This document shows positions 21,799 to 23,565 of a stretch of DNA of 33,993 nt, one piece after another. The notes beneath the pieces were generated by a model that did no database searches, had not been told where the DNA came from, and saw nothing but the letters and a program-made list of their open reading frames with translations. Positions within the stretch are counted from its first letter, which is position 1; each line of letters opens with the position of its first letter. The position numbers and the translations under genes were made by a program. Origin of the DNA: a virus; IMG/VR virus record IMGVR_UViG_3300024255_000089, positions 1 through 33,993 of that record, one strand, 5' to 3'.

Positions 21799-21936
21799 GT
21801 TCTTATCGTAACGCACACACCAGCCGGATCCATTTTTAAAAAATGTAATATAACCTGGCGCACGCCCGCGGCCGTCCGTCGATGGCTTTGGGCTAATGGC
21901 CTTCTTCACACGTGAAGCTTTTCTAGTGTTTACCAT
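21670..21936 (-). CDS. Small protein with repeat-derived C-terminus
   Basis: An 88-aa frame overlapping the 3' end of the GP88 gene by 14 nt. The first ~47 residues look like a normal protein (KPSTDGRGRAPGYITFFKNG then SGWCVRYDKN); the remainder (KQQATSTKHH, KLQATSVKQQASSSK) is a translation of the GCTTGNN repeats on the opposite strand. No clear Shine-Dalgarno is seen. I have a vague memory of similar proteins in phages with such repeats. It may be a real gene extended by the array. Confidence 0.45.
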   Translation of the reverse strand: MVNTRKASRVKKAISPKPSTDGRGRAPGYITFFKNGSGWCVRYDKNAKQQATSTKHHAPIFRKLQATSVKQQASSSKLFEMIDASIKA

Positions 21937-22522
21937 AACTAATGTTTTTAATGTCTTTATTCCAGCATGCTCTACAATCTAAACACTGGCCGCCTTGATT
22001 AGGCGCTGGACAGCTGGGGCTCCCATCGGTCACCACTGTTGACGAATGCGACCAGGCATTGCCTGCGGTCCCGTCTACACGTGCAGCGGATAACCTAATA
22101 ATTAAATTCGCTGGAACCTCTTCAGGAGCTGGCAAGTATTGCCGCTCTTGAGTTGGTAACCAGTGTTTGGTGTCAGGTGTGAGCTTGCACACTTCTATGA
22201 TTTTTGCCATATGCTCATGACTTTGTACGTCTCCCGCGTCATGCCATCTAAACCATTTTTGACGCTTGATCACAGCAGCCATTGCGGTGACCCAGTCAGG
22301 GTGATTGATAGCGTCCAGTCTTCTATATTGCGCTTCTCTTATTGCAGGGTATCTTGTATAGTTACCCTTCAGGGCGTAACAGCCGTAACACGGTGAAGTC
22401 TTAACGAGTCTTAGCTTGGAGCCAGTTTGGCAGGCCCACGCTGGCAGGCTGTAACTTAAGCCAGGCATCTTAGACGTTCTAGTGAATGAGTCTGTAATTT
22501 TTAATGCTTCTTTTACTTTCAT
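21923..22522 (-). CDS. GP88-family phage protein
   Basis: A 199-aa protein matching the 'gene product 88' family of phages: KMPGLSYSLPAWAC (18-31), a Cys cluster SPCYGCYALKGNYTRYP, AINHPDWVTAM, KWFRWHDAGDVQS, TKHWLPTQERQ, and a C-terminal CLDCRACWNK. Conserved Cys in the first and last parts suggest a bound metal or iron-sulfur cluster; the biochemical role is unknown to me. GC content and codon use are clearly higher than in neighbouring genes, pointing to acquisition from elsewhere. GGAGAAAG lies in front of the ATG and a promoter with TTGACA-N17-TATAGG just upstream. Confidence 0.8.
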   Translation of the reverse strand: MKVKEALKITDSFTRTSKMPGLSYSLPAWACQTGSKLRLVKTSPCYGCYALKGNYTRYPAIREAQYRRLDAINHPDWVTAMAAVIKRQKWFRWHDAGDVQSHEHMAKIIEVCKLTPDTKHWLPTQERQYLPAPEEVPANLIIRLSAARVDGTAGNAWSHSSTVVTDGSPSCPAPNQGGQCLDCRACWNKDIKNISYGKH

Positions 22523-22542
22523 AATTCTTTCTCCTTTATTAT

Positions 22543-22571
22543 CCTATACTATAAATCTTTTGACCTGTCAA
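22543..22571 (-). promoter_or_regulatory. Promoter for the GP88 gene
   Basis: Minus strand: TTGACA (22571-22566), N17, TATAGG (22548-22543) within ATAGTATAGGATAAT, a 15-mer repeated exactly at 22833-22847 in the next promoter. A GCTTGNN array starts 8 bp upstream of the -35. Confidence 0.65.
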
Positions 22572-22578
22572 GCCCCCT

Positions 22579-22620
22579 GCTTGCCGCTTGTTGCTTGCGG
22601 CTTGCTGCTTGTAGCTTGAG
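22579..22620 (+). repeat. GCTTGNN heptanucleotide array 2 (6 copies)
   Basis: GCTTG at 22579, 22586, 22593, 22600, 22607 and 22614 without interruption. It lies directly upstream of the GP88 promoter. Confidence 0.85.
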
Positions 22621-22702: not shown

Positions 22703-22816
22703 TTATTCCTGATCTTCATCCGGGAACCTTTTCGCCATCTTCTCCTGGTCCGCCTTCACCAGTCTCAGGATCTCTTCCAGGGCGTCTGCTATTCTTTTCA
22801 ATTGTGTATCATTCAT
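22703..22816 (-). CDS. 37-aa helical microprotein
   Basis: ATG at 22816 and TAA at 22705-22703, preceded on the minus strand by AAAGGA seven bases upstream and a TTGACA-N17-TAGGAT promoter. The product, MNDTQLKRIADALEEILRLV then KADQEKMAKRFPDEDQE, is one amphipathic helix with a charged tail. Its GC is higher than the genome average. I recall near-identical small proteins in marine phages, none characterised. Confidence 0.68.
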   Translation of the reverse strand: MNDTQLKRIADALEEILRLVKADQEKMAKRFPDEDQE

Positions 22817-22835
22817 AATTATTCCTTTCAATATT

Positions 22836-22864
22836 ATCCTATACTATCTTATACCAGCTGTCAA
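22836..22864 (-). promoter_or_regulatory. Promoter for the 37-aa gene
   Basis: Minus strand: TTGACA (22864-22859), N17, TAGGAT (22841-22836), 20 nt before the ATG at 22816. GCTTGNN array 3 starts six bases upstream of the -35. Confidence 0.65.
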
Positions 22865-22869
22865 GCGTT

Positions 22870-22895
22870 GCTTGCTGCTTGATGCTTGAAGCTCG
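22870..22895 (+). repeat. GCTTGNN heptanucleotide array 3 (3 copies plus a degenerate one)
   Basis: GCTTG at 22870, 22877 and 22884, then GCTCG at 22891. It abuts the promoter of the 37-aa gene. Confidence 0.75.
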
Positions 22896-22907
22896 GCTCT
22901 TCTCTTC

Positions 22908-22936
22908 TTTAGAATGAAACTTAGAATCATTCTAAA
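22908..22936. repeat. 10-bp inverted repeat containing the shared palindrome
   Basis: TTTAGAATGA (22908-22917) and TCATTCTAAA (22927-22936) form a perfect 10-bp stem around AACTTAGAA. The right part, TTAGAATCATTCTAAA (22921-22936), is itself palindromic and matches 19771-19786 in inverse orientation. It lies just past the 3' end of the RNA candidate; there is no T-run, so it is more like an operator than a terminator. Confidence 0.55.
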
Positions 22937-22937
22937 C

Positions 22938-23486
22938 TGGCAATTCATATACCAGCAACGCCATCCTGATCAGGGAAGCCAGCGCTGCTGGTCCAAGTAT
23001 CGACGCTACCCTTTCAGGTCACTGCTTAGGTCCAGGGAAATGCCATAGGCAAGATATGTACCCCTAACTTGGTTCATCATTAGCAGGACCCATCCAGCTG
23101 CGCGCGTTTACCTCCAACTTGGGTCCAGCAAATAATAATCTTAGGACCTACAATGGTAGAGCATCGTAGATCCATAAAATTTTACTGATCAGTCACTATG
23201 CTACGCGGGGCCTAGAGATCGTCAGTTATCTAGTCTCATTGGACCGGTATCCCAATTATCTTCACCCGTGTTCTAGTGTTTATTCTCACAGTCAACAATG
23301 ACTGATCCCAGATCTTATTAGAGATTGACCAACCATCCTTTCAGGTCGTAACCTCCAGTGATCAATTGGAAGCTTAGGCCAAGTTAATAAGATCAGGGAT
23401 CAGTGGGCTATACTCGGGATCAAACCTTTCTAGCCGTAATCCTGCTAATTTGAGTTTTTTAATTCCGTATATTAGCAAAAGGGAAT
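22938..23486 (-). ncRNA. Candidate large structured non-coding RNA
   Basis: About 550 bp without a plausible gene and with higher GC than the flanks. The minus strand has a TTGACA-N17-TATATA promoter just upstream. Stems (plus coordinates): 23301-23320 with 23385-23404 (19 of 20 pairs); 22951-22961 with 22982-22992 (11 pairs, one G-U only on minus); 23086-23092 with 23120-23126; 23406-23410 with 23431-23435; 23443-23449 with 23471-23477. ACCU-GAAA-GGGU (23019-23008) is a GNRA hairpin. UAUGG (23176-23172) and CCUAAG (23145-23140) flank a 6-bp stem as in the 11-nt tetraloop receptor. GACCUGAAAGG occurs twice, CCUAAG three times. The 3' end is unknown. It recalls GOLLD/ROOL-class phage RNAs in scale, but I cannot assign it to one. 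Confidence 0.7.
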
Positions 23487-23500
23487 ATCTCCTATATAAT
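23472..23500 (+). promoter_or_regulatory. Promoter for the 320-aa gene
   Basis: TTAGCA (23472-23477), N17, TATAAT (23495-23500). Its -10 overlaps the -10 of the minus-strand RNA promoter. An inverted repeat, ATTGACA-TTATT-TGTCAAT (23504-23522), lies just after. An alternative is TTGACA (23505) with TATAAA (23525) at short spacing. Confidence 0.45.
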
Positions 23501-23521
23501 CCTATTGACATTATTTGTCAA
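23493..23521 (-). promoter_or_regulatory. Promoter for the structured RNA
   Basis: Minus strand: TTGACA (23521-23516), N17, TATATA (23498-23493) within TAGGATTATATA, the same arrangement as the strong promoter at 7076-7104. The predicted transcript start is near 23486. Confidence 0.7.
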
Positions 23522-23565
23522 TAGTATAAATTAAAAAAATAAAAATAATTAACAGAAAGGTCAAA

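Follow-up and report, generated by a model that had tools for sequence, protein, structure and literature searches.

The window, i.e., the whole stretch of 33,993 nucleotides analyzed here, contains a gene-free gap of about 550 bp between a GP88-like gene and a divergently oriented gene that has no Pfam or PHROG match. No open reading frame (ORF) of at least 50 aa overlaps positions 22883 to 23565, and the GC content of the region (0.43) exceeds that of the DNA just to its right (0.32 to 0.35) and of most of the window (~0.27 to 0.40). A perfect TTGACA-N17-TATATA promoter is present on the minus strand (23521 to 23493). All of this agrees with a sequence-only reading of the window, which had proposed that the gap encodes a large, apparently undescribed structured RNA on the minus strand. 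In most of 124 relatives, TTGACA-N17-TATATa/t is found ~45 to 55 bp from the divergent ATG. The promoter -35 box is held within a TTGACA...TGTCAA dyad (TTGACAAT...ATTGTCAA; window positions 23505 to 23521), also found in relatives, in which the divergent -35 boxes overlap and which looks like an operator common to the RNA and the divergent gene. The features of the locus are listed in Table 1.

Table 1. Features of the RNA locus, ordered from the divergent gene toward the GP88-like gene.
Feature	Position	Strand	Basis or remark
Divergent neighbor gene, 320 aa	23566..24528	+	Locus marker; 87.6% identical to HTVC027P gp35
Promoter TTGACA-N17-TATATA	23493..23521	-	Sequence; kept in most of 124 syntenic relatives
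Whole RNA, ~540 nt (predicted)	22945..23486	-	Alignment of 22 group-A relatives, promoter position, fold z-score
Leader hairpin GCUAAU...AUUAGC	23444..23476	-	Leader in 42 IMG/VR loci; sequence
Second leader hairpin GGCUA...UAGCC	23406..23435	-	Common to many aligned relatives
5′ arm: closing helix CUGAUCCC-u-GAUC../..GAUC-u-GGGAUCAG and exchanged inner cassette	23301..23404	-	
Central ("mid") module: variable arm enclosed by an invariant outer helix and junction	23187..23307	-	Model R1
ACCGGU, variable-arm loop of the central module, candidate homotypic contact	23243..23248	-	
Optional stem-loop with exact 11-nt GAAA-receptor motif (UAUGG/CCUAAG)	23140..23186	-	
3′ arm: closing helix AUUAUUUGCUGGACC...GGUCCUGCUAAUGAU around exchanged cassette	23076..23139	-	
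Loop hexamer CGCGCG, self-complementary	23101..23106	-	Relatives have CCCGGG, CCUAGG at the same place
Flavobacterium-1 (RF02976) 3′ domain	22951..23072	-	cmscan; one copy in record
Palindromic apical hairpin CCUGAUCAGG in the 3′ domain	22965..22974	-	
Conserved tail AUAUGA closing the RNA	22945..22950	-	Also in stand-alone copies and in the unrelated second 3′ module
GP88-like gene (PF17338), downstream	21923..22522	-	Locus marker; 94.5% identical to HTVC027P gp33

A blastn search against 50,697 phage records returned only Pelagibacter phage HTVC027P, which carries its copy of the RNA in the unannotated gp34-gp35 gap and was grown on HTCC1062, a strain of SAR11, the most common bacteria of the ocean. 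HTVC027P is an HTVC023P-type pelagiphage (PMC12753301). Because of the high identity of the flanking genes to those of HTVC027P (Table 1), the window phage is most likely of the HTVC023P type as well, and from this kinship we infer a SAR11 host. To collect further homologues, the conserved heart of the 3′ domain was used for an exact-pattern scan of IMG/VR, which gave 85 stretches. Twenty-four of them are window-like, with ~430 nt upstream conserved in blocks, and about 60 share the ~120-nt domain alone, mostly with a stop codon or a promoter immediately before it. A mid-RNA pattern was found in at least 119 IMG/VR stretches and a 5′ leader pattern in 42. Two matches to the core pattern in the 85,000-species GTDB collection (L221 and L222) lie in unrelated DNA, miss the flanks of the domain, and look like chance. 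In 124 relatives, the RNA region, ~300 to 600 nt long, occupies one fixed locus with the divergent gene on one side and the GP88-like gene, on the same strand as the RNA, on the other; the gap measures 551 to 2102 bp.

The 5′ end of the whole RNA was predicted from the -10 box, and its 3′ end (..GGUAUAUGA) was placed where conservation stops in the group-A alignment. Compared with dinucleotide shuffles, the minus-strand fold of the region has a z-score of -4.1, with none of 100 shuffles as good, against a weaker -2.9 for the plus strand. The individual helices listed by the sequence-only reading are borne out. The 20-nt arms 23301 to 23320 and 23385 to 23404 are 95% complementary, and the helix 22951 to 22961/22982 to 22992 is the 11-bp 3′ stem of RF02976, with a U-G pair that exists on the minus strand only. 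The minus-strand pairings AUCUAC/GUAGGU and ACCU-GAAA-GGGU, the exact 11-nt GAAA-receptor motif (23172 to 23176 and 23140 to 23145), two copies of GACCUGAAAGG, and three of CCUAAG are all in the sequence.

Covariation in homologues, which the same reading had named as a check, is present in the 5′ arm, the 3′ arm, and the central module. Among 98 unique 5′ arms, 749 of 784 pairs at helix positions 10 to 17 are Watson-Crick pairs, compared to 502 ± 9.6 when the 3′ halves are shuffled (500 times). Departures from pairing comprise 31 G-U and a single A-C, and therefore the pairing strand is the minus strand of the window. Positions 3 to 8 of the 3′ arm likewise gave 264 Watson-Crick pairs in 52 unique arms, compared to 188 ± 6.5 after shuffling. 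The central module, which scores 98.8 bits with our model R1 in the window, has about 45 invariant positions among 103 distinct sequences; columns 43 and 109 pair as CG (55), AU (28), UA (12), or GC (6), and the covariation score of the module (0.087 versus 0.036 shuffled) was reached by none of 500 shuffles. On this comparative evidence, the structure of the region is far beyond chance. A conserved open frame was not found across relatives, the longest ATG frame within the window RNA being 31 aa, and arm lengths vary freely among relatives, which speaks against a protein-coding region. With covarying homologues and no conserved reading frame, the proposal of a large minus-strand structured RNA in a marine phage holds.

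The description of this RNA as undescribed was only partly right, because its 3′ fifth (22951 to 23072) belongs to the Rfam family Flavobacterium-1 (RF02976); the other ~415 nt have no Rfam family. The RF02976 match is the single one above threshold in the whole window, is full length (model positions 1 to 121), and stands well over the cut-off (114.6 bits versus a gathering score of 58.9; E value, 3.9e-22), and the HTVC027P copy scores 90.2 bits. The last 122 nt of the window RNA are thus a full-length family member, but the whole RNA exceeds the family: Rfam models a small RNA on its own, whereas the window has it as the final domain in a multidomain RNA of ~540 nt, the other domains being without an Rfam model. 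The window holds no stand-alone copy, while relatives also carry the domain as a separate small RNA, with GUGCAC or GUCGAC at the position of the apical hairpin. The sequence-only reading had further assigned the RNA either to a known giant class or to a new one, and the former found no support: the GOLLD, ROOL, OLE, HEARO, and IMES models have no match in the window region, at gathering score or at E values of up to 10, nor at gathering score among 34 related loci. Other Rfam families obtained at lax thresholds in 22938 to 23521 had E values of 5 to 8 and were discarded as noise. Our literature search found no paper naming Flavobacterium-1 and none on a pelagiphage noncoding RNA.

The strongest features of this RNA, i.e., cassette exchange, self-complementary loops, and a fused-or-split 3′ domain, were all absent from the sequence-only reading. 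Arm interiors are swapped wholesale inside conserved closing helices and fall into 91 unrelated cassette families. The 79 unique 5′-arm interiors form 66 unrelated clusters and the 38 3′-arm interiors form 26, nine interior clusters being found in both arm types. Optional modules, among them the receptor stem and a second 3′ module that has a distinct sequence but keeps the AUAUGA tail, also come and go among relatives. The receptor stem-loop is present in about 8 of the 22 aligned group-A relatives, where its stem stays paired via G-U and A-U changes. Relatives retain the GAAA loop whether or not they have this module, so the loop may or may not dock on it. A receptor flag across relatives gave inflated counts, because UAUGG and CCUAAG occur inside the 3′ domain too.

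The 3′ domain can be fused to the rest of the RNA or separate from it. Across 38 records, RF02976 and the central module each occur 0 or 1 time per record, except that central modules stand in tandem within one RNA at two loci. The tandem central modules lie at L029 (4045 to 4367) and in the record of L017 (G020, 754 to 1160). The central module and RF02976 are fused as one RNA in about 12 of the 38 records and split in about 11, with RF02976 elsewhere, on the opposite strand, and mostly kilobases away; a fused and a separate copy together were seen in none, although many records are fragments, in which a missing part proves nothing. At the level of regions, 43 of 102 central-module regions carry a fused Flavobacterium-1 domain. 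This fused-or-split distribution is the pattern expected of two cooperating parts.

Stand-alone Flavobacterium-1 copies at L031, L038, L044, L057, L075, L080, L085, and L086 lie directly behind TTGACATTATCCTAGAATATCCTATA with their own promoter, and other stand-alone copies come after stop codons. The second 3′ terminal module (..ACATTCCGCTCACCAAATGCTTCGCGCTAAGTGACTTC..) replaces Flavobacterium-1 at L187, L190, L199, L207, L212, L213, L217, and L219, where it has no Rfam match. It ends in the same UUUAUAUGAUU tail as Flavobacterium-1 RNAs, and the two were never found together in one region.

Three cassette families, P1 to P3, have constant flanks around one short variable window each. All eight hexamer variants of P3 (GGCCCUG-N6-..UAAACAA) are palindromic (CCUAGG, UUGCAA, AUGCAU, UCCGGA, GCCGGC, GUCGAC, GUGCAC, and GUUAAC), and so are all five octamers of P2 (GCCCGGGC, ACCGCGGU, GCCUAGGC, GCUCGAGC, and GUCCGGAC), an extra P2 variant, GCCUGGGC, self-pairing through G-U. 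P1, the family of the window's own 3′ arm, has CGCGCG, CCCGGG, and CCUAGG (3/3 palindromic). No other variable window in the P1 to P3 families is mostly palindromic. In the central loop M1, six of eight octamers are perfect palindromes (GGGAUCCC, GGGUACCC, GGAGCUCC, AGGAUCCU, GGAUAUCC, and GAGAUCUC), the other two being one G-U variant and one exception; the M1 and M2 loop results cover central modules only, looser patterns having picked up unrelated DNA. Homologous central-module loops of other subtypes carry differing palindromes.

An alignment-free test with one representative of each of the 91 cassette families, using dinucleotide shuffles as a control, gave the same picture. Palindromes of 6 nt occur in 72 families (44.2 ± 4.7 shuffled) and of 8 nt in 41 (13.7 ± 3.3 shuffled), and isolated palindromes unable to form a hairpin apex number 55 (33.4 ± 4.3 shuffled). 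Where an RNA has two palindromic loops, the two differ in 16 of 16 cases; two P-type loops in one RNA were never seen (2.4 expected; p = 0.045), a weak mutual exclusion. A global flank-based search had its palindrome signal diluted by background, and single-sequence MFE folding put only some of the palindromes into hairpin loops (3.7% versus 1.6% expected). Of 101 central-module regions, 37 are without any listed palindromic loop, so that a contact of a recognized type is not universal. The loop positions of this RNA covary as palindromes in the sense of PMC12286853. Because they vary yet stay self-complementary, and neighboring bases are unable to pair in one strand, pairing is expected between two RNA copies; OLE loop L9.3 and GOLLD loop L21a have been interpreted by the same argument, and their contacts are visible by cryo-EM (PMC12286853). 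In P3, a short hairpin may have the palindrome at its tip, which would leave a kissing contact of 4 nt.

These loops suggest that RNA copies join into a larger particle, and we conclude that this is an ornate phage RNA class of combinatorial build whose members probably form homo-oligomers. The free RNA would be transcribed from its own promoter during infection and would fold so that conserved closing helices hold exchangeable hairpin cassettes. Copies would then bind through homotypic kissing loops, with at least two different contacts per molecule, to give a closed or repeating homo-oligomer, which the Flavobacterium-1 domain would join as a second part, in cis if fused and in trans if separate. 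We consider such a free-standing, self-associating RNA, with Flavobacterium-1 in cis or in trans, fairly likely to be the right account. The stronger version, in which monomers assembled combinatorially from the cassettes bear several different strain-specific loops, these loops let the RNA of each phage recognize its own copies and not those of relatives within a self-assembling particle of very abundant ocean phages, and Flavobacterium-1 is an obligate partner, fused or in trans, is more tentative and somewhat more apt to be wrong than right.

In HIV-1 DIS and phi29 pRNA, too, RNAs contact one another through loops, homotypically or in rings. GCGCGC and GUGCAC, which are DIS palindromes, both occur in the SAR11-phage RNA, but the sequences are otherwise unrelated. 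The RNA is positioned between terminase genes, from which our analysis implies no packaging role. IMES RNAs are marine structured RNAs without protein, and the window RNA has no Rfam match to them. A close likeness is to GOLLD and ROOL, which are also large, ornate, phage encoded, of unknown function, and built of a variable part beside a conserved one, with self-complementary kissing loops backed by palindrome covariation (PMC12286853). However, they match the window RNA neither in sequence nor by model and are often near tRNA islands, whereas the window is without tRNA; cassettes are exchanged between arms in the SAR11-phage RNA, and its oligomer is a predicted one. In the OLE dimer, L9.3 switches among the palindromes GGCC, GAUC, and AGCU, much like the P1 to P3 loops (PMC12286853), but OLE is bacterial and protein associated, has no Rfam match to the window RNA, and has a palindrome signal reported for one loop rather than several.

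Other explanations were weighed against self-association. The RNA could act as a monomer, in trans or by binding protein as a regulator or decoy, its variable arms being used for recognition in an arms race and its palindromes pairing with another partner. Such a role would suit the 91 unrelated interior families beside a near-invariant central junction, as for a protein or ligand site, and raiA and HEARO are large RNAs without self-assembly (PMC12286853). It leaves unexplained why homologous loops covary in a way that preserves self-complementarity, with departures mostly G-U in the RNA sense, and we regard it as unlikely.

Octamer palindromes are common in DNA-level sites as well, and the locus could be a DNA element in which nested inverted repeats form recombination or replication structures, hairpins move as cassettes, and transcription is incidental. 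Cassettes indeed move between arms (nine clusters in two arm types), and the palindromes are DNA-like, with nested inverted repeats around GATC. Yet the departures from pairing favor one strand (31 G-U versus 1 A-C), the RNA 5′ end has a strong, conserved promoter, and a curated RNA domain, RF02976, lies at the other end on the same strand, which makes a DNA element highly improbable. Least probable of all is a riboswitch-like 5′ leader belonging to the GP88-like and gp34-like genes downstream, even though the RNA is always upstream of them on their strand and HTVC027P gp33 and gp34 make up a separate temporal cluster with high expression at 6 to 9 h (PMC12753301). That cluster is circumstantial only, because gp34 and gp33 each have an apparent TTGACA...TAGGAT promoter of their own downstream of the RNA. 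Both these promoters and the 3′ domain, which can be kilobases away on the other strand, speak against a leader.

Returning to the self-associating RNA, it is conjecture that it acts in the infected SAR11 cell as a container, scaffold, or decoy. Infected cells lose ribosome signal (PMC11066056) and GOLLD binds ribosomes in pull-downs (PMC12286853), which together may serve as a lead, not as evidence. What was already known is the family of the 3′ domain, and the whole RNA would work like an ornate self-assembling phage RNA. Within the reach of our tools, novelty lies in the RNA at full length, the group of hosts and the locus in which it occurs, the swapping of cassettes, the self-complementary loops particular to each strain, and a partner domain that is either fused or split. 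The orphan family Flavobacterium-1 thereby gains a context, as a domain of a larger RNA or as its partner. GOLLD and ROOL were found in 2025 to be phage RNAs able to build protein-free cages, and the SAR11-phage RNA is unrelated to them in sequence. Dozens of natural palindrome variants offer a ready comparison series, and HTVC027P, which bears the RNA, is culturable on a SAR11 strain whose genome has been sequenced. Strand-specific RNA-seq of its infection is public; the published transcriptome counted annotated genes only (PMC12753301).

Two minor observations concern the DNA beside the RNA. Repeated tracts of CTTGAAGC/GCTTGCTGCTTG, and TATTATCCTATACTAT (window positions 22537 to 22616 and 22832 to 22893; L087 8600 to 8680), precede minus-strand genes alongside TTGACA..TAGGAT promoters and recur intergenically in these phages. 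A similar small ORF in the window (22703 to 22816) has no Pfam match, and HTVC027P gp34 (L087 8394 to 8534) is a 46-aa ORF adjoining the RNA that was published with a C33 peptidase-associated domain.
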